Below, in pieces: positions 1 through 51,834 of a stretch of 64,000 nt of DNA. The notes beneath the pieces are model-generated. The model searched no databases. It was not told the origin of the DNA and saw only the letters and a program-made list of their open reading frames with translations. The stretch covers positions 1 to 64,000 of the IMG/VR virus record IMGVR_UViG_3300020370_000002; one strand, written 5' to 3'. Every line of letters starts with the position of its first letter. Positions within the stretch are counted from its first letter, which is position 1. A program made the position numbers and the translations under genes. This DNA is from a virus.

Positions 1-45
1 GGTAAAATGAGCGCGGCCTACTGGGCCAACAAAGTGAAATGGTAA
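1..45 (+). CDS. 3' end of an ORF cut by the window edge
   Basis: Frame 1 is open from the first base and ends at a TAA at 43-45, giving a tail that reads GKMSAAYWANKVKW. Nothing more can be said about its function. The partial ORF at the right edge of the window (63944-64000) would continue in frame into this one if the molecule were circular and the window complete. That is an inference only. Confidence 0.3.
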   Translation, partial: GKMSAAYWANKVKW

Positions 46-111
46 TCTCGTTCATCCTTTAAGGACGGAAGTAAGGAGCACTTAGCCTGAAGGAACGCCA
101 GACACGGCTAA
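46..111 (+). promoter_or_regulatory. Glutamine riboswitch, Downstream-peptide class
   Basis: The segment matches the glnA/Downstream-peptide glutamine aptamer by eye. P1 pairs CGTTC (49-53) with GAACG (93-97). A short hairpin TCCT/AGGA is followed at once by ACGGAAGTA, the conserved core, and GAAGGAACGC closes P1. AGG at 74-76 can pair with CCT at 86-88 as the pseudoknot. TTAGCC (82-87) can instead pair with GGCTAA (106-111), right before the Shine-Dalgarno AGGAGA, so ligand binding could expose or hide that site. A very short peptide gene follows, which is the arrangement that named this class. The aptamer identity is from memory of the consensus; the switching mechanism is inference. Confidence 0.85.
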
Positions 112-124
112 AAGGAGAGATACT

Positions 125-178
125 ATGAAAGAAGTAACTTTAGTCTATCGTGGTGTTACATACACTAAAAAGGTATAG
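125..178 (+). CDS. 17-residue peptide under the glutamine riboswitch
   Basis: ATG at 125 follows AGGAGAG with good spacing, and the frame ends at TAG 176-178, giving MKEVTLVYRGVTYTKKV. The YRGVTY core resembles the start of DUF4278 proteins, short cyanobacterial and phage proteins beginning with a LxYRGVxY motif. It is the first gene after the riboswitch, so it is the most likely regulated product. Small size makes homology weak evidence; the ribosome binding site and the riboswitch are the main support. Role unknown; a regulatory micro-peptide acting on host nitrogen metabolism is speculation. Confidence 0.7.
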   Translation: MKEVTLVYRGVTYTKKV

Positions 179-191
179 GGAGAGGTAAAAT

Positions 192-782
192 ATGGATATA
201 CTTTTAGAACTTGCAACAACTTTTTGGCAATGGAGCGTAGTAATCGTTCTAATTTTAATTGGTTTTATAATCAGTTGGTTTGACGGCCAAGGAGAAGAAC
301 GTGTAGGTTTTAAAATGCCCTTTGGTATGCCCGTATTACAACCTATACCAATAGAAACAAAAGACAAAGGGTTTTGGAAAGGGATTCTTCTGTGGCTTCT
401 TGGTAAAAGACAGTGGGAGGTCGCAGAAGACTTCTGGTTTAAACTAGACGGAGAAACCTACATGATTCCCGCAGGATTTCAGTTTGACGGGGCTTCTGTA
501 CCAAAGTTTCTTGCTACCTTTCTTTCGCCTGTAGGAGTTTTACTTATGGGTGGTTTAGTACATGATTATGGGTACAAGTACGCAACTTTAATGAGAGATG
601 ACGGTACTAATATTGGTTATAGAGACCAAGCGTACATGGACAGACTTTTTCGAGATATATGCATCGAAGTAAACGGGTTTAAATTTTTAAACTATCTTGC
701 CTACTGGTCACTTCGCCTTGTTGGCTTTGTGGCTTGGAACGGGCACAAAAAGAGAGGTACGCATACTGAGGAGAGCGCATGA
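192..782 (+). CDS. DUF1353-family membrane-anchored phage protein
   Basis: This 196-residue protein starts with a hydrophobic membrane segment (about residues 10-30). The rest fits DUF1353, a phage family of unknown function: the IPAGFQFDGASVPKF stretch near residue 92 and the following HDYGYKY stretch are its usual signatures. The gene follows the peptide gene by 13 bp with a GGGAGAGG ribosome binding site, and overlaps the next gene by 4 bp (ATGA). DUF1353 genes often lie near lysis or packaging genes, as here, but no activity is established. Confidence 0.8.
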   Translation: MDILLELATTFWQWSVVIVLILIGFIISWFDGQGEERVGFKMPFGMPVLQPIPIETKDKGFWKGILLWLLGKRQWEVAEDFWFKLDGETYMIPAGFQFDGASVPKFLATFLSPVGVLLMGGLVHDYGYKYATLMRDDGTNIGYRDQAYMDRLFRDICIEVNGFKFLNYLAYWSLRLVGFVAWNGHKKRGTHTEESA

Positions 783-1012
783 GTGAAGAAGGTAAGAATA
801 AATACCAGAAGTGGATTGATTTAGCAGAAGCTGTAGATAGCTGGAGAATATTTCCACGAGCATTTTTAAGCGTGTATATCTTTCTTCTCTACTACAGCAC
901 AATGTGGTTTATGGCCTTAGAAGCACCAAGCCTTGAACAGTCGGGCCTTATATCAATTATCGTGGGTGCGGGTGCTGCATGGTTCGGATTATATACAGGA
1001 AGTAAAAAGTAA
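779..1012 (+). CDS. Small two-helix membrane protein, candidate holin
   Basis: The 77-residue protein has a charged N-terminus, a hydrophobic segment around residues 28-46 and a second around 57-74 that is rich in Gly and Ala, ending in SKK. Size, two predicted helices and a basic tail fit a holin, and it sits just before the terminase gene, a common place for holins. The lysozyme is encoded far away (61.0 kb, minus strand), so the assignment is tentative. It is translationally coupled to the upstream DUF1353 gene by an ATGA overlap. Confidence 0.55.
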   Translation: MSEEGKNKYQKWIDLAEAVDSWRIFPRAFLSVYIFLLYYSTMWFMALEAPSLEQSGLISIIVGAGAAWFGLYTGSKK

Positions 1013-1021
1013 GAGGCCACT

Positions 1022-2326
1022 ATGGCAATAGAGATTAGTCGAGCGGATATTATTTCGCAAGAGCTATTAGAGTTACAATCTGAGACAAGGTTTCTCAAAT
1101 TACCAGTAGATCCCTACTTGGAGCTACTCGGCATAACGCCCCTTGCTAGTCAAGTGGCGATCATAAATGCGATTAATAATCCGAAATACCGTTTTGTATG
1201 TGCGGCTGTTTCGAGAAGGCAGGGTAAAACCTACATCGCAAACATAATCGGGCAGCTAGTTTCGCTAGTTCCCAACTCAAACATACTCATAATGTCCCCC
1301 AACTATGCCTTGTCTCAGATTTCTTTTGATCTTCAAAGAAATCTGATAAAGCACTTTGATTTAGAAGTTGCGAAAGACAATGCAAAAGATAAGGTAATAG
1401 AACTAACAAATGGATCCACAATTCGAATGGGAAGTGTTAATCAGGTTGATAGCTGTGTTGGTCGTAGCTACGACCTTATCATCTTCGATGAGGCTGCTTT
1501 GGCCGATGGCAGGGATGCTTTTAACGTAGCCCTACGCCCCACGCTGGATAAAGACAATTCAAAAGCAATCTTTATAAGTACCCCCAGAGGAAAAAACAAC
1601 TGGTTTTCAGACTTTTTCTACAGAGGCTTTTCAGATGAATTTAAAGAATGGGCGTCTATTCGAGCTACTTATAAGGATAATCCTCGCATGTCTGAGACGG
1701 ATATTGCGGAAGCTCGAAAATCTATGTCCGAGGCTGAGTTTCGACAAGAGTATGAAGCAGATTTCAACACATACGAAGGACAAATTTGGAACTTTAATCA
1801 CGAAGAATGTATTGGAAACTTCGACGAGATTGACACCTCAAAGATGGATGTCTTTGCGGGCTTGGATGTCGGTTACCGAGACCCTACGGCCTTTTGTGTA
1901 ATTGGCTATGACTGGGATGAAGAAAAGTTTTACTTACTGGATGAGTACTTAGATGCCGAACAAACAACAGAAACTCACGCAAAAGAAATTCAAGCACGAA
2001 TTGATAAATGGGGTATTGACTATATTTATATCGATTCTGCTGCGCAGCAAACACGATTTGACTTCGCACAAAACTATGACATATCTACTATTAACGCAAA
2101 GAAGTCCGTTCTCGATGGAATCGCGCAGGTAGCTGGAATAGTAGATAATGATAAATTACTTGTTGAACAGACTTGTAAAGAATCCCTCTCTGCGTTAGAT
2201 CAGTACCAGTGGGACCCCAATCCCAACCTAATGAAAGAGAAACCGAAACACAACTATGCATCGCACATGGCGGACGCGTTAAGGTATGCATTATACTCAT
2301 TTGAGACTTCGGCAATAAGTTTTTAG
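1022..2326 (+). CDS. terL: Terminase large subunit
   Basis: This is the ATP-driven DNA packaging motor and headful or cos nuclease. Residues 64-70 read SRRQGKT (Walker A-like) and 152-158 LIIFDEA (Walker B with catalytic Glu). The C-terminal nuclease half carries the acidic residues expected of the RNase H fold: GLDVGYRDP near 281, YIYIDSA near 338 and HMADALRYA near 418. The 434-residue length is normal for a HK97/lambda-type siphovirus. No small terminase was recognised next to it; that gene may be upstream of the window or the small DNA-binding ORF at 3976. Confidence 0.96.
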   Translation: MAIEISRADIISQELLELQSETRFLKLPVDPYLELLGITPLASQVAIINAINNPKYRFVCAAVSRRQGKTYIANIIGQLVSLVPNSNILIMSPNYALSQISFDLQRNLIKHFDLEVAKDNAKDKVIELTNGSTIRMGSVNQVDSCVGRSYDLIIFDEAALADGRDAFNVALRPTLDKDNSKAIFISTPRGKNNWFSDFFYRGFSDEFKEWASIRATYKDNPRMSETDIAEARKSMSEAEFRQEYEADFNTYEGQIWNFNHEECIGNFDEIDTSKMDVFAGLDVGYRDPTAFCVIGYDWDEEKFYLLDEYLDAEQTTETHAKEIQARIDKWGIDYIYIDSAAQQTRFDFAQNYDISTINAKKSVLDGIAQVAGIVDNDKLLVEQTCKESLSALDQYQWDPNPNLMKEKPKHNYASHMADALRYALYSFETSAISF

Positions 2327-2348
2327 GATACCTGGTCAAAAATAATAT

Positions 2349-2377
2349 TTGACATGATACCCCAAACTAGGTATAAT
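2349..2377 (+). promoter_or_regulatory. Consensus sigma-70-type promoter
   Basis: TTGACA at 2349-2354 and TATAAT at 2372-2377 are separated by exactly 17 bp, a perfect consensus. The upstream bases are A/T-rich. It lies in the 85-bp gap after the terminase gene and would drive the HNH-portal-capsid genes. It is one of ten promoters of the same design in the window. Confidence 0.85.
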
Positions 2378-2411
2378 TCTATCATTGAAAAATTAGAAAT
2401 CCAAGAACCTA

Positions 2412-2777
2412 ATGGTCACACTTAAACGAGATATAGTAAAATATATTCGAGACAAAGCGAAGAATAAGTACGATAAAGGTTCGGAGTGCTACATTTGTGG
2501 AGCAACAGAGAAACTTGACTTTCACCACTATTACACGTTAGCGCCCCTAGTACATAAATGGGTTCGGGAAAATGACTTAAATCCTATGTACGTTCTTGCT
2601 TTCAGAGAAGACTTTATAGAGGACCACCACGACGAATTATACGTACATGCGGTTACTCTATGTCATACGCACCATAGACAATTACATAAAGTATACGGAC
2701 GAGACCCAGGCCTTGGAACAGCAAACAAGCAGAAGCGCTGGGTAGAGATACAAAGAGAAAAACATGGCATGGTATGA
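2412..2777 (+). CDS. HNH-type nuclease next to terminase
   Basis: The 121-residue protein has a zinc-binding CYICG pair near residue 27, FHHYY near 40 and a second cluster LCHTHHRQLH near 95-104. This is the layout of a small HNH endonuclease with structural zinc. HNH proteins beside terminase and portal genes assist DNA cutting during packaging in HK97-like phages, which is the likely role here. A free-standing homing nuclease is the alternative. The gene follows the 2349 promoter and overlaps the portal gene by 14 bp, suggesting coupled translation. Confidence 0.75.
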   Translation: MVTLKRDIVKYIRDKAKNKYDKGSECYICGATEKLDFHHYYTLAPLVHKWVRENDLNPMYVLAFREDFIEDHHDELYVHAVTLCHTHHRQLHKVYGRDPGLGTANKQKRWVEIQREKHGMV

Positions 2778-3975
2778 CAGATTCTTAGGCAGGGAAGACG
2801 AGGAAAAAGCTAATCCCGCACAGTCGCTATTAGGAGGGACTTCCGAGAGTACTCGAGAGCCTACTATAAGCTATGAGCGACAATACGAAGAATTAGAAAT
2901 TGTCAACCGTGCAGTTAATATGATTGTTGATGACGCTGCAGAAATTCCTTCTACAATATTAGGCTCTAGGCGTCAAACAGGAATTATAAAAAACATAAAA
3001 AGAGCAAAAGTTAATCAGCTCTTAAATGTAGAACCAAACTTATTTCAAGATATAAATACATTTAAGCGTAACTTAATAACGGACTTTATACTAGATGGAA
3101 ATATTTTTATATACTACGATGGAGCACATTTGTACCATCTTCCTTCAAGTAAAATGTCTATTGAAGCAAGCGAAAGCACCTATGTAGAAAAATATACTTT
3201 CTCTCAGTCTATAGACTATAGCCCAAAAGAAATCATTCATATAAAAGAAAATTCTTTTTATTCTATTTACAGAGGAGTACCTAGACTTAGTCCAGCCTTG
3301 AGAACTATGCAGTTAATTGGCTCAATGAGAAAGTTTCAAGATAATTTCTTTAAAAACGGTGCAGTTCCAGGATTAGTTTTAAAAAGCCCTAATACTCTTT
3401 CTGAAAAGATCAAAGAGAGAATGATACAATCATGGAGTGTAAGGTATAGGCCCGAAGGCGGAGGAAGGCGCCCTTTAATTTTAGATGGCGGCATTGAAGT
3501 TGATTCTCTTTCTAATACTAACTTCAAGGATTTGGACTTTCAGAATTCAATATCAGAAAATGAAAAAATTATACTTAAAGCTCTTGGCGTACCACCCATA
3601 TTACTTGATTCAGGTAATAATGCAAATATAAGACCAAACTTAAGATTGTACTATTTAGAGACGATACTCCCAATAGTGCGAAAAATAAACTTTGGGTTTG
3701 AAAGATTTTTTGGGTTTGAAATTAAAGAAGATATTACAGATATCCCCGCTTTACAGCCAGAGTTAAGAGACCAATCAGCGTATTATACCTCCCTAGTAAA
3801 CGGTGGTATAATAACTATAAACGAAGCAAGAGAGCAGCTAGGTTTTGAACCTATTGCTGGTCAAGACGAAGTAAGAGTTCCTGCAAATATAGCAGGGAGT
3901 GCAGCAAACCCAGACGAAGGGGGAAGGCCTGCCGAATCAGAAGAAACTATAACCGAAGATGGAGAGGAAGAATAA
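2764..3975 (+). CDS. Portal protein, HK97 gp3-like
   Basis: The 403-residue protein forms the ring through which DNA enters and leaves the head. Features of the HK97 portal family include the MAWYDRFLG start, the region FILDGNIFIYYDG near 105-120, GVPRLSPAL near 167 and the conserved ILKALGVPPILL segment near 270. The C-terminal tail is acidic and rich in Glu, as is common. It lies between the nuclease and the small ORF before the protease-capsid gene, which is the standard order. Confidence 0.95.
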   Translation: MAWYDRFLGREDEEKANPAQSLLGGTSESTREPTISYERQYEELEIVNRAVNMIVDDAAEIPSTILGSRRQTGIIKNIKRAKVNQLLNVEPNLFQDINTFKRNLITDFILDGNIFIYYDGAHLYHLPSSKMSIEASESTYVEKYTFSQSIDYSPKEIIHIKENSFYSIYRGVPRLSPALRTMQLIGSMRKFQDNFFKNGAVPGLVLKSPNTLSEKIKERMIQSWSVRYRPEGGGRRPLILDGGIEVDSLSNTNFKDLDFQNSISENEKIILKALGVPPILLDSGNNANIRPNLRLYYLETILPIVRKINFGFERFFGFEIKEDITDIPALQPELRDQSAYYTSLVNGGIITINEAREQLGFEPIAGQDEVRVPANIAGSAANPDEGGRPAESEETITEDGEEE

Positions 3976-4287
3976 ATGGCGGGATCGTCAGTACAAAAGA
4001 AAAAAATGGCAGTTACAATGGCCATGTATTTCGCAGAGAATGGTTATCTTCCAACTCCAAAAGAATTCTCGAACGACCCCATTAGACCACCAGAAATAAA
4101 AATATCAACTATACGAAAAATATTTGGTTCTTGGTCGATAATGGAGAAATATACGAGATCATTTTGTCCCGACATTATGCGTGGACTTACTAATGTAAAG
4201 CCTAAAATAATCGATCCTTTAAAGGAGCTAAACAAGGCACAGACCGCAGAAGCGGAAAAAGAGGGGGCAAATGGAAAAAGTATTTAA
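3976..4287 (+). CDS. Small possible DNA-binding protein in the head operon
   Basis: The 103-residue basic protein has no certain family. The stretch GYLPTPKEF followed about 30 residues later by FGSW resembles the helix-turn-helix module seen next to some phage HNH nucleases and terminase small subunits. It starts immediately after the portal stop codon and overlaps the protease-capsid gene by 17 bp. Because no small terminase is recognised nearby, this gene is one candidate for that role, but its place after the portal would be unusual. Confidence 0.5.
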   Translation: MAGSSVQKKKMAVTMAMYFAENGYLPTPKEFSNDPIRPPEIKISTIRKIFGSWSIMEKYTRSFCPDIMRGLTNVKPKIIDPLKELNKAQTAEAEKEGANGKSI

Positions 4288-6241
4288 TCTCACCTCTACT
4301 TTTAAGTCTCATACTGAAGAAGATGGTAGTGTTATGATTCGAGGTATGGCTAGTACCAATGACTTTGATCGCGCGGGCGATTCAATTTCAACTGATGCTT
4401 GGACTAAAGGTGGATTAAACAATTTTGAAAAGAACCCTATTATTCTTTTCAATCATGATTACAACAGACCTATTGGTAGAGCTACTGGTTTAAAAACTAC
4501 TGCCAATGGACTGGAGCTGACTGCTAAGATAAGCAAAGCAGCAAAAGATGTTGTAGATTTAGTTAAAGACGGTGTTCTTGGGGCCTTTTCTGTTGGTTTC
4601 CGAGTCAAGGACGCTGATTATATCGAGGAAACCGACGGTTTAAAGATAAAGGACGCTGAGTTGTTTGAGGTATCGGTAGTATCTGTACCATGTAATCAAT
4701 CAGCTACTTTTTCACTGGCGAAGTCTTTTGACTCCATGGCGGAGTACGAAGAGTTCAAAAAAACTTTCACTAATAGTGACGGGGCGCAAGTCCAAAAGGA
4801 GATAACAATGTCTGAAGAGACAACTCAACCCGTTGACTTGGAAGCTTTTGCTAAAAAAGTAGCTGAGGAAACTGCTGCTAAGATAGCCATGAAGCAAGCC
4901 GAGCAAAAAGCAGCCGATGAGGCTGTACAAAAAGAGGCTGAAGAAAAAGCTACTGCGGAAGCAGAAGCTAAAGCTCAGCAAGAAACAGAAGTTAAGCAAG
5001 CTATAGTTACAGGCGTTGAGTCTGGAACTGAGCGTTTGCTTTCTGATGTTGAGGCTAAGTTGGCAGAAAAAGATGCTAAGATGGATGAAGTCATCAAGCA
5101 GCATGAAGCCGACCTCAAAGAAAAAGCCGAAGAAATTGAAAAGATGCGTGATTCTAAGCGTGTTTTTTCCGATCGTGATCGCGGCGACCTAACCAAGTTT
5201 GGCAAGGATTTCCTCCAAGCTCATATTCTTGGTAAAATTACTCGTAAAGGGTGGGATACTGGCTTTGGTAAAGAAGTATTACAAAAAGCCGGCGTAACTT
5301 ACGATGCTACTAGCGCAGCTGGTATCGACGTAAATGTTTCTGCAGCTTTTGAAGAGGAAGTAAGACTTGAGCAGAAGGTTGCTCCTCTCTTCCGCGAAAT
5401 CGCTGTAGCATCTGGTGCAACTGTACTACCCATCGCACCCGATACTGAGAACGCAAACTGGAACAACACTGGTTTGGAAACTGCGGGTAACCTGTTAGAA
5501 GAAGCTGGTGCTACTGATAACAACTACAACGTTAACCGCGTGTTGTTACAGGCTTACAGACTTGTATCAGGTACGTTTATTGCTAACGATACTGATGAGC
5601 AGGTTGTAATTAGCGTTCTTCCTATCATTACTTCCGCTCTTGCAAGAGCACATGCGAAAGCAATTGATTCAGCCATTATGGTTGGAAACTCTTCTTTCGT
5701 AGGTCTTGTTGGTGGAGCTGGTACTGACGGTTCTGGATCTTTCCTCGCAGCAGATTCTGCTCTTGTAACTGATCCTGATGCATCTGGTACTTCCGATGCA
5801 ATCACAGGCGCAAACTTGCTTTCCATCCGATCTGAGATGGGCAAGTATGGTATGAGCCCTACTGATGTTGCATACATCGTTGGTATTGACCAGTACTACA
5901 ACCTTATTGCCGATGCCGCATTCCAGGATGTGTCAGAAGTTGGTTCCGACACAGCAATGAAGCTGGTTGGTCAAGTTGGAAGCATTTACGGATCACCTGT
6001 AATTGCTACTGATGCACTTGCTCAAGGTACGAAGGAAGGTGGAGCCTTTGCAGGAACCGCTGCTGTTGCCGTAAACGTACGCAACTATGTTGTACCTCGA
6101 CTGAAGGGTGTTAGCATTGAGACCGACTACGAAGTAGCGGGTCAGCGCACAGCCATTGTTGCCGCACAATCTCTCGGATTTAACGAGTTGGTTGCTGGCA
6201 CAACTAACAATGAGCCTGCAGTACGAATCGAGTATCAGTAA
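4271..6241 (+). CDS. Prohead protease fused to major capsid protein
   Basis: One 656-residue frame covers two head functions. Residues 1-170 are a HK97-type prohead serine protease, with His62 in FNHDYNRPIGRA, Ser107 in GAFSVGF and Glu133 in LFEVSVV as the probable catalytic set. Residues 180-300 are Ala/Glu/Lys-rich coiled coil, like the HK97 delta (scaffold) domain. Residues 310-656 are a HK97-fold major capsid protein. An internal ATG at 4808 (Met180) is preceded by a strong AAGGAG site, so a separate 477-residue scaffold-capsid precursor is probably also made in the same frame. A terminator follows the gene. Confidence 0.93.
   Translation: MEKVFNLTSTFKSHTEEDGSVMIRGMASTNDFDRAGDSISTDAWTKGGLNNFEKNPIILFNHDYNRPIGRATGLKTTANGLELTAKISKAAKDVVDLVKDGVLGAFSVGFRVKDADYIEETDGLKIKDAELFEVSVVSVPCNQSATFSLAKSFDSMAEYEEFKKTFTNSDGAQVQKEITMSEETTQPVDLEAFAKKVAEETAAKIAMKQAEQKAADEAVQKEAEEKATAEAEAKAQQETEVKQAIVTGVESGTERLLSDVEAKLAEKDAKMDEVIKQHEADLKEKAEEIEKMRDSKRVFSDRDRGDLTKFGKDFLQAHILGKITRKGWDTGFGKEVLQKAGVTYDATSAAGIDVNVSAAFEEEVRLEQKVAPLFREIAVASGATVLPIAPDTENANWNNTGLETAGNLLEEAGATDNNYNVNRVLLQAYRLVSGTFIANDTDEQVVISVLPIITSALARAHAKAIDSAIMVGNSSFVGLVGGAGTDGSGSFLAADSALVTDPDASGTSDAITGANLLSIRSEMGKYGMSPTDVAYIVGIDQYYNLIADAAFQDVSEVGSDTAMKLVGQVGSIYGSPVIATDALAQGTKEGGAFAGTAAVAVNVRNYVVPRLKGVSIETDYEVAGQRTAIVAAQSLGFNELVAGTTNNEPAVRIEYQ
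4795..4810 (+). promoter_or_regulatory. Internal ribosome binding site and start codon for a capsid-only product
   Basis: AAGGAGATAACAATG lies inside the protease-capsid gene exactly between the protease and the coiled-coil scaffold domain. The spacing is near ideal and the ATG is in frame. It would allow excess capsid over protease, which is what assembly requires. The site is directly visible; its use is inferred. Confidence 0.7.
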
Positions 6242-48886: not shown

Positions 48887-49195
48887 TTAAATGGTGAAGC
48901 TAACGCCACACCCGCACGCATCCTGTACATTAGGATTGTTTATTGTAAGCGAAGAACCTATGAGTTCTTCATGATAGTCTACTGTGCTTCCATGTACTGC
49001 CGTTAGGGCAGCTTCACCAACAACCACTAGATCATCTACTAATGTAAAGGTTAGTGGGAGTTCATCACAGTAGTCCCAAGTATATTCAAAACCCGCACAG
49101 CCACTAGGCTTCAGGTCTAAGAGTATATACTTCTTATTCTTCTCAATACGTTTACTGTTAAGATACTTCTTGGCACTCGCAGTTATGGTTAACAT
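48887..49195 (-). CDS. iscA: A-type Fe-S carrier, IscA/ErpA family
   Basis: The 102-residue protein has the three conserved cysteines: Cys33 in SGCAGFEY, and Cys94 and Cys96 in DACGCGVSF, following NNPNV. These bind and pass on Fe-S clusters. Length and motifs match IscA/ErpA. An extra Cys43 is present. It overlaps the iscU gene by 38 bp, so the two are translated together. Whether it acts like IscA or ErpA cannot be decided here. A host-derived auxiliary gene is likely. Confidence 0.95.
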   Translation of the reverse strand: MLTITASAKKYLNSKRIEKNKKYILLDLKPSGCAGFEYTWDYCDELPLTFTLVDDLVVVGEAALTAVHGSTVDYHEELIGSSLTINNPNVQDACGCGVSFTI

Positions 49196-49568
49196 TTTTA
49201 CCCTTGTAATCCTCTATTGCAGCTTTTATTGCGTCTTCAGCTAAGACACTACAGTGGATCTTGACTGGGGGCAAGGAAAGTTCGTCCGCAATTTCGGTGT
49301 TCTTGATTTGAAGAGCTGTATCAAGGCTTCGTCCCTTAACCCACTCGGTAAGGAGAGAGCTTGAAGCAATGGCGGATCCACATCCGTAAGTTTTAAACTT
49401 AGCATCTTCAATGATGTTTTCATTATTGACTCGTATTTGTAGTCGCATAACATCCCCGCAAGCAGGTGCACCAACCATCCCCGTACCCACGGAGTCGTCT
49501 CCTTCGTCAAGTCGCCCAACGTTTCTTGGTCGTTCATAGTGTTCTAATACCTTATCAGAGTATGCCAT
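49158..49568 (-). CDS. iscU: Fe-S cluster scaffold, IscU
   Basis: The start is ATG 49568, which lies inside the end of the polymerase gene, giving 136 residues. Cys37, Asp39, Cys63, His105 and Cys106 and the LPPVK motif (99-103) that host HscA recognises sit at the same positions as in E. coli IscU. The first 120 residues align closely with that protein. The C-terminus adds an NCEC tail. It should build [2Fe-2S] clusters from host IscS sulfur. The 14-bp overlap with polA implies coupled translation. Confidence 0.96.
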   Translation of the reverse strand: MAYSDKVLEHYERPRNVGRLDEGDDSVGTGMVGAPACGDVMRLQIRVNNENIIEDAKFKTYGCGSAIASSSLLTEWVKGRSLDTALQIKNTEIADELSLPPVKIHCSVLAEDAIKAAIEDYKGKNVNHNCECQEVS

Positions 49569-51834
49569 ATTGCTTCTCAAATTTGCCCATTGAATAGTCG
49601 TCTCCGATTTCGAAGTCGCACCCAACTGGAGCGCCAGGAATAATAATTCCTCTGTCTTTCTGTATACAATACTTAAGTTTTTCTGAGTACACTTCTATCT
49701 CGTCGTCTGGAACTTCTGCAAGAATAGAATCGTGTACAAGTGCAAAGATACGGGCTTTCATCTTGCTTGCCTGTATATCATCATGCATATCTATAGCCCC
49801 AAGCAGGTTAATATCAGAAGCAGTAGACTGGACCAAAAAGTTAAGACCAGAACGAATGCTGTGACTTTTGATACCTGCGTCCGAAGATTTGACATTTGGT
49901 AATCTCCTTTTTCTACCAAAGAAACTGTATACAAACCCATTTTGTTCAATGAATCTGTGGTTGTCGTTTATCCACTTCTTAAGCGCATGAAACGATTCAA
50001 AGTAGTCATCAATAACTTCTTTTGCTTCTTGCTGACTAAAGTATTTGCCAGAGTCTTTGGTAACTTGCTCACTAATCTTCTTTGGGCCTGCACCATACAT
50101 GATGCCGAATGTAACTGCTTTTGCAGCCTGTCTTTGTGTTGTGTATAGTTCTGCTACTTCTTCTACTTCACACGGTAGACGAAATACTGTCTTCGCAATA
50201 CTACTGTGAAAGTTTCCGCCTGAACGAAATACTTCCATAAGTGCTTTGTCTTTGGCAAGAACTGCGGCAACATAAACCTCTGCCGTAGTCAAGTCCATTG
50301 CAACAATCTTATGTCCTTCCGCCGCTTTGATACATCCTTTTACAGCAGGGTTATCCCGAGGAAGCTGTTGCATATTAAGCTTACCACTAGAACTGAGCCT
50401 ACCGCTAGTAGTACCATGAAGGTTGAACGATGTGCGCAATCTGCTATCTCTATCCAGTTGCGGTATGATTTTGTCCAGATAAGTATTTTTAATTTTGGAT
50501 CGTTGACGTATGTCAAGGATAAGTCGTGGAATTTCCGACTGGGATCCAAGTTCTTGCAATACCTCTGCATCCGTAGAGTGAGCTCCTGTTCCTGTCTTTT
50601 TGCCAGTTGGTTGCAGATCAAGATAGTCAAAAAGAAGGGAACGTAGCTGGACAGTAGAATTAGGATTAAAATCTTTTCCATTGTACTTTTCCCACTTGTT
50701 TATTATAGGGTTCTTGTATAGCCCAGTAACGGCAGTATCAATATCGTCCTGCATAAGCTCCTGAGCTGCGTATAATCTTTTCTTGTCGAAAGGAACACCG
50801 TTGTCCTGTGCATCAATCAGAAAGCGTGTGCCAGGAATGAGTATGTTATCGTATACCCACTTGAGTTTGGGGTTCTCTTTAATCTTCTTAAACTTGTCGT
50901 AAAGAAGATAAGTACATAGAGCATCCATTGCTGCATATGTTTTCATTATATCAAAGGGAATAGACCCCCACTGGAAGTCTCCTTTCAGGATGCCGTTTTC
51001 TTTTCTGTAGTTATCCATCCACTCATACATTGGCTTCTCATAGTCGCCATATGGAGTAAATCGAATAGATAACTGCTTCAGGCCATGCCCTCCGGGATTC
51101 TCGTCTATGAGATAGTGGAGCAGCATGGTGTCTTCTATTCTTGGGAACTCAAAGTTGAAGTGGTACTCAAAGAATGCAACGTCAAACTTTGCGTTATGAA
51201 ATACTACTCGCTTTTTGCTGAAGAGCGTTTGAAGAAGCTCTTCAGTCTCTTCATCAAAGCAGTCTGTTGAGATATATGCTCCGCGTTTGCCGTCGTAAGA
51301 AAGTGATATCCCCAGAATGTGCCCGTCCCTAGGATAGAGCCCAGTCGTCTCGGAATCCAGAGCAATAAATGTACCAGAATCTGCGATTGCTTCTCGTAAA
51401 AACGTGTTACACTCTTTTGTATCTTGTATGCCAAATGCGATTGACTCATCTATTATCACCTCTTCTATCTCACCATTTATATACTTAATGATGCTTTCTT
51501 TTGAATCTTCCCATGTCTTACGTGCTTCTGGCTTGAAGGTAAGCATGGCTGGGTTTATTACTGGCAAGAATTTATCTTCTACTTTCTTACCAGAATATTC
51601 TGTTACTGAATTTATCTTTGTGAAGTATTTCAACGCATCACTCCCAACTAGAACAATCCAGTCATATAAGTCTGCGTTAAAGGTTATATCACAATCTCTC
51701 TTCAATACTTTCTTTATAGTAGGATCAGAACAAAGCTGATACTGGTCGAACTCGAAAGCTCCACCAAACGCTTTGTTAAAGTCTGTTCTACTAGGTTTAG
51801 TTTCTACTAGAGCAACTTTAGCTGGTAACTTCAT
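49555..51834 (-). CDS. DNA polymerase, family A
   Basis: The 759-residue replicative polymerase has a 3'-5' exonuclease (Asp160-x-Glu162 in ALDSETTGLY) and polymerase motifs: A, DLTTAEVY near 515; B, RQAAKAVTFGIMYG near 573 with Phe at the position called 762; C, VHDS near 700. Motif C normally reads HDE. Residues 1-130 (WIVLVGSDALKYF, PVINPAMLTF) resemble a degenerate uracil-DNA-glycosylase-like domain known from some phage polymerases. The 5' nuclease is a separate gene. It overlaps the primase gene by 17 bp and iscU by 14 bp. Confidence 0.95.
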   Translation of the reverse strand: MKLPAKVALVETKPSRTDFNKAFGGAFEFDQYQLCSDPTIKKVLKRDCDITFNADLYDWIVLVGSDALKYFTKINSVTEYSGKKVEDKFLPVINPAMLTFKPEARKTWEDSKESIIKYINGEIEEVIIDESIAFGIQDTKECNTFLREAIADSGTFIALDSETTGLYPRDGHILGISLSYDGKRGAYISTDCFDEETEELLQTLFSKKRVVFHNAKFDVAFFEYHFNFEFPRIEDTMLLHYLIDENPGGHGLKQLSIRFTPYGDYEKPMYEWMDNYRKENGILKGDFQWGSIPFDIMKTYAAMDALCTYLLYDKFKKIKENPKLKWVYDNILIPGTRFLIDAQDNGVPFDKKRLYAAQELMQDDIDTAVTGLYKNPIINKWEKYNGKDFNPNSTVQLRSLLFDYLDLQPTGKKTGTGAHSTDAEVLQELGSQSEIPRLILDIRQRSKIKNTYLDKIIPQLDRDSRLRTSFNLHGTTSGRLSSSGKLNMQQLPRDNPAVKGCIKAAEGHKIVAMDLTTAEVYVAAVLAKDKALMEVFRSGGNFHSSIAKTVFRLPCEVEEVAELYTTQRQAAKAVTFGIMYGAGPKKISEQVTKDSGKYFSQQEAKEVIDDYFESFHALKKWINDNHRFIEQNGFVYSFFGRKRRLPNVKSSDAGIKSHSIRSGLNFLVQSTASDINLLGAIDMHDDIQASKMKARIFALVHDSILAEVPDDEIEVYSEKLKYCIQKDRGIIIPGAPVGCDFEIGDDYSMGKFEKQYGIL

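Follow-up and report, generated by a model that had tools for sequence, protein, structure and literature searches.

A glutamine-I riboswitch preceding a minimal YRG peptide in a phage of probable gammaproteobacterial hosts

Glutamine-I and glutamine-II riboswitches are ON switches in cyanobacteria, where they mostly lie before DUF4278 genes (PMC6316151). According to that review, which cites Klaehn et al. 2018, glutamine-I precedes gifB/IF17 and other DUF4278 genes in these organisms. For inactivation of glutamine synthetase (GS), IF17 reportedly does not need its DUF4278 domain, and in 2018 the review regarded glutamine riboswitches as exclusively cyanobacterial (PMC6316151). In picocyanobacteria and cyanophages, the glutamine-II class (RF01704) accompanies short peptides (PMC2864571). 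Glutamine riboswitches have also been described in methylophage Melnitz and pelagiphage Mosig, whose hosts are not cyanobacteria, the one in Melnitz being published as located at the 3′ end of ssrA and controlling the tmRNA (PMC9004378). Both the placing of glutamine-I before DUF4278 in cyanobacteria and the presence of glutamine riboswitches in phages that infect heterotrophs are already known.

Here we analysed a stretch of 64,000 nucleotides (the window) from the record of a marine phage (82,805 bases). Judging by its sequence, this phage carries a genuine glutamine riboswitch of the glnA class, RF01739, currently named 'Glutamine riboswitch aptamer (glnA leader)' in Rfam, where the name of RF01704 is now Glutamine-II. 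The features of the locus, all on the + strand, are:

1-45 (+): 3′ end of the upstream gene (98 aa, ending in ...MSAAYWANKVKW; phrog_7595)
49-53 with 93-97 (+): P1 helix, CGUUC/GAACG, enclosing P2 and P3 (sequence and Rfam alignment)
55-58 with 62-65 (+): P2 helix, UCCU/AGGA (sequence)
65-73 and 89-97 (+): conserved core, ACGGAAGUA and GAAGGAACG (sequence)
74-76 with 86-88 (+): P3 helix, AGG/CCU (Rfam alignment)
82-87 with 106-111 (+), spanning 82-111: candidate switching helix, UUAGCC/GGCUAA, whose CC is shared with P3 (read from the sequence and relatives)
113-117 (+): Shine-Dalgarno AGGAG of the peptide (sequence)
125-178 (+): 17-residue peptide MKEVTLVYRGVTYTKKV, ATG at 125 and stop at 176-178, minimal YRG/DUF4278-type, PHROG 5049-like
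192-782 (+): DUF1353 gene, next downstream, with its start codon 13 nt past the peptide stop

An Rfam cmscan of the whole window placed the RF01739 aptamer at 47-101 (+) with 50.8 bits (E 3.3e-8) against a gathering cut-off of 35 bits, and its alignment contains zero non-standard pairs. The three-way junction by which glutamine-I membership is recognized is present, with its core ACGGAAGUA/GAAGGAACG and P1. A preliminary description of this DNA had proposed a glutamine riboswitch at the window start, with a core closed by CGTTC/GAACG and a very short YRG peptide next to it; the riboswitch and its P1 pairing are both recovered by the RF01739 model, the peptide corresponds to a real ORF conserved in relatives, and the positions given for aptamer, Shine-Dalgarno and 17-codon ORF agree with direct reading of the sequence. 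Its choice of the Downstream-peptide class, on the other hand, had to be abandoned. When the covariance models of both classes were compared, as had been suggested, only glnA passed: RF01704 reached 11.9 bits (E 0.1) against a cut-off of 33 bits, was absent from the Rfam scan output for the window even at E up to 5, and at a loose limit also matched 10 of 14 unrelated control genomes. Given these scores, the window aptamer is glutamine-I. The RF01739 search of 14 control genomes returned Synechococcus elongatus as the sole match, and above-cut-off copies are found in six close relatives of the window phage. We infer that the window copy binds L-glutamine.

The peptide itself has a pN/pS of about 0.12, as calculated from only seven short related sequences. 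Differences among relatives are mostly synonymous, apart from the conservative replacements K/R and V/I, K/T changes and a single in-frame loss of 3 nt, and these comparisons indicate that MKEVTLVYRGVTYTKKV is under purifying selection. Pfam DUF4278 (PF14105) matches it below threshold (14.4 bits against a cut-off of 25.3, covering only positions 2-12 of 57), and in PHROG it matches phrog_5049 with an E of 1.9e-4; in both searches the query was padded with EEE (three added Glu) to attain the minimum length of 20 aa. Members of PHROG 5049, a family of YRG peptides without functional annotation that occurs for example in the cyanophages P-SSM2 and S-SRM01, are about 45 residues long and contain two YRG motifs, compared with the 17 residues found here. 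The peptide amounts to a DUF4278/YRG protein pared down to one motif.

With the cyanobacterial glutamine-I/gifB system, the locus shares the aptamer class, the YRG/DUF4278 cargo and, plausibly, a translational ON logic. It differs in being borne by a T5-like phage with a probable gammaproteobacterial host, and in that its cargo is a 17-residue single motif, whereas a protein of the IF17 type is full-length and includes a GS-inactivating part. Since DUF4278 is reportedly dispensable for GS inactivation by IF17, inhibition of glutamine synthetase by the 17-residue peptide through the IF17 route is unlikely. With the glutamine-II systems of cyanophages it is the cargo that is near-identical (17-18 residues with a YRGVTYTK core) and the aptamer that is of another class; the phages concerned, P-SSP10, NATL2A-133 and 9515-10a, infect Prochlorococcus. 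Melnitz, too, is a phage with a host outside the cyanobacteria and a glutamine riboswitch, in which we see a glnA-type core, but it is a T4-like myophage and the ORF downstream is not a YRG peptide. That ORF, unannotated in Melnitz (MZ577097, L282 46415-46590), encodes 32 residues (MTLYQQWCYLKAQKEYRRRQKILMYFRIRLKG) with a strong Shine-Dalgarno, 27 nt past the riboswitch. The riboswitch target in Melnitz may be this ORF rather than the tmRNA.

Regarding the mode of action, no intrinsic terminator was found in the stretch from aptamer to ATG, nor any forward promoter-like site near the cassette, and a translational switch fits the absence of both. The candidate switching helix keeps its AGCC/GGCU core in relatives. 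In folding predictions, which are indicative only for a ligand-binding aptamer, forcing P1 raised the mean unpaired probability of the Shine-Dalgarno from 0.14-0.56 to 0.73-0.89 in six of seven cassettes (from 0.41 to 0.75 in that of the window), while in the seventh it was open in both states. Shuffled-linker controls gave no comparable rise. Extending the prediction to 69 viral glutamine-I leaders, 11 opened, 5 closed and 53 were unchanged, a small mean effect that nonetheless differs from shuffles (Wilcoxon p 0.003). Modelling favours a translational ON switch as the predicted direction. A pairing of AUCUC 45-49 with GAGAU 117-121, seen in the minimum-energy fold as a possible anti-Shine-Dalgarno, was dropped, as relative L012 lacks AUCUC.

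The upstream gene ends with its stop codon 3 nt before P1, and the remainder of this gene lies at the far end of the record, which is redundant. Indeed, an exact 4,911-nt repeat joins both ends (window 1-4911 equals record 77895-82805): the genome has 77,894 bp, is circular or terminally redundant, and the riboswitch is therefore not at a true genome end. A second apparent riboswitch at record 77941-77995 was rejected as an assembly artefact of this repeat. Downstream of the peptide the order is DUF1353, a 77-residue protein, the terminase large subunit, an HNH-like protein and the portal. No near DNA-level match to the first 20 kb was found in the phage collection. Among close terminase relatives, L005, L006, L007, L009, L010 and L012 (6 of 50 terminase-matched records) have the riboswitch together with the peptide, and the remaining ones examined lack both; L095, which entered the set through its riboswitch, likewise has both. 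In L008 (terminase 96%) the flanking genes are the same and the ATG of DUF1353 abuts the upstream stop, which makes it a clean empty site and gives a cassette size of about 146 bp. In L009 and L010 a different gene follows, so that the cassette is not tied to DUF1353. Comparison of these genomes shows that riboswitch and peptide are inherited as a single cassette.

These data bear on what the riboswitch controls. It could mainly govern the late operon (DUF1353, terminase, portal), with the peptide being a leader ORF for translation coupling, as the 13 nt separating the DUF1353 start from the peptide stop and the continuation of the operon into terminase and portal would suggest. We find this unlikely: a Shine-Dalgarno-like sequence of its own precedes the DUF1353 start, DUF1353 is not the gene after the cassette in L009 and L010, the same operon exists in L008 without any riboswitch, and the peptide is conserved at the protein level, which is unnecessary for a leader. 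Besides, the other viral glutamine-I leaders lie in unrelated neighbourhoods, yet nearly always have a short ORF next. The patchy distribution, and a cassette gained or lost with its neighbours undisturbed, as in L008, would also be compatible with a decayed or passenger copy, recently gained from a cyanophage or host and functionless in the window phage; this is very improbable given that the core nucleotides are all intact, that scores are above cut-off in the cassette-bearing relatives and that the peptide is under purifying selection. Finally, a glutamine-II aptamer, towards which the short YRG cargo typical of that class and a reading of UUAGCC/GGCUAA as a pseudoknot-like pairing might point, deserves hardly any credence in view of the scores of both models, the controls matching RF01704, the glnA-type junction core and the short conserved peptides that also follow glutamine-I aptamers in many viral contigs.

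The explanation that we consider probable as a whole is that of a glutamine-I riboswitch working as a translational ON switch for a YRG peptide that acts in host nitrogen control. The riboswitch lies in a phage transcript, with one gene on either side. At high glutamine the aptamer would be folded with P1 closed, leaving the Shine-Dalgarno accessible and the peptide translated, and at low glutamine the ribosome site would be partly masked. The peptide, as a stripped-down YRG/DUF4278 motif, a cargo also found behind glutamine riboswitches in cyanobacteria, in marine gammaproteobacteria with small genomes and in other marine phages, is most likely a short binding motif that would mimic or compete with host YRG proteins in nitrogen control, a target and an effect that we infer.

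The terminase, capsid and polymerase of the window phage are closest (33-50% identity) to those of phages of 110-130 kb infecting Vibrio, Aeromonas, Pectobacterium and Serratia, which are T5-like. Five of six contigs of the window phage group were binned with gammaproteobacterial MAGs. The phage IscU, which had been thought to look proteobacterial, is indeed 82% identical to gammaproteobacterial IscU. The phage is T5-like and has a probable gammaproteobacterial host. At window 48887-49625 (-), the IscU gene adjoins a putative HesB/IscA-like ORF. G051 is a MAG titled Gammaproteobacteria, in which L210, a contig of a relative, was binned. We did not adopt its riboswitch-rich order as host, because the phage IscU matches that order poorly (E 1e-41 to 1e-46) and other gammaproteobacteria at 82%. 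In the order of G177, which is among the best IscU matches, no riboswitch was found in 11 genomes.

RF01739 scored above cut-off in 79 of 199 genomes from the order of G051 (small-genome marine gammaproteobacteria), in 9 of 20 from the order of G342, and in only 3 of 369 sampled genomes of the class of G051. Being common in the first of these orders and in part of the second, glutamine riboswitches range beyond cyanobacteria. The preliminary description had supposed such a wider host range, and the idea stands for host genomes, while for phages it had been published before (PMC9004378). With gene names read from the sequences and only partly tested, tandem glutamine-I aptamers precede glutamine synthetase in G051 and G086 in the same gene order, with a hydrolase before and gpmA and mutY after, and one aptamer is located ahead of an outer-membrane-type gene and an ammonium transporter gene; the contigs with these riboswitches are G051:C8, G086:C1 and G086:C4. 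In G342:C1, glutamine-I aptamers lie before the large and small glutamate synthase genes. Tandem aptamers are also seen at G086:C1:161855-161960, followed by a lone 43-residue ORF with no Pfam or PHROG match. DUF4278 genes lie directly downstream of glutamine-I aptamers in G568 and G578, and the longer relative of the YRG peptide in G568 passes the Pfam DUF4278 cut-off. In G231 a sub-threshold hit (34.2 bits) is found upstream of a DUF4278 gene, a locus that is chromosomal, since its neighbours on a contig of 1.19 Mb are rnc/era-type and acpS/adk-type genes.

Other viral loci were also compared. Contig L133, whose primase and DnaB are 62-70% identical to those of the window phage, has a glutamine-I aptamer preceding a DUF4278 protein of 54 residues with three motifs, which scores above the Pfam cut-off and has no match among isolate phages; by this gene content it is a second site of the glutamine-I/DUF4278 system in the window phage group. 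Most of the 80 viral loci listed with the glutamine-I core pattern have a short ORF about 20-35 nt downstream. Roughly one fifth to one quarter of these ORFs have YRG motifs, others being of a 'WCY' type, and a Pfam comparison of the other short viral ORFs gave no convincing match to families of known inhibitors. Viral contigs L109, L136, L145, L158 and L161 have tandem glutamine-I aptamers resembling gammaproteobacterial glnA leaders. In the Prochlorococcus podophages P-SSP10, NATL2A-133 and 9515-10a, a glutamine-II aptamer (51.5 bits) is followed by MTVKLKYRGVTYTKTLNN or a variant, with the eight-residue core YRGVTYTK identical to that of the window peptide in two of the three; cyanomyophages have longer, two-motif versions. 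In these podophages (L207, L208 and L209, around 1412-1560) both the glutamine-II aptamer and the 18-residue YRG peptide are unannotated and lie downstream of psbA. Our comparison shows the same peptide core behind two aptamer classes.

In a partial literature search we found no description of chromosomal glutamine-I with DUF4278 cargo in gammaproteobacteria, of a T5-like phage cassette with an empty site, or of one peptide core behind both aptamer classes, and we recognised no literature on glutamine riboswitches in SAR86. That one core should stand behind two aptamer classes argues strongly, on comparative grounds, that the job of the peptide is tied to glutamine. It is conceivable, and we propose it tentatively, that a glutamine-gated YRG circuit is common to cyanobacteria, to ocean gammaproteobacteria with small genomes and to the phages infecting either, and that the minimal phage peptides, behind either aptamer class, would interfere with a conserved putative partner in host nitrogen control. 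The DUF4278/YRG cargo occurs in its smallest form in a phage of probable gammaproteobacterial hosts, and a protein family with an uncharacterised role is there reduced to a motif of 17 residues, which can be made synthetically as bait for its partner.
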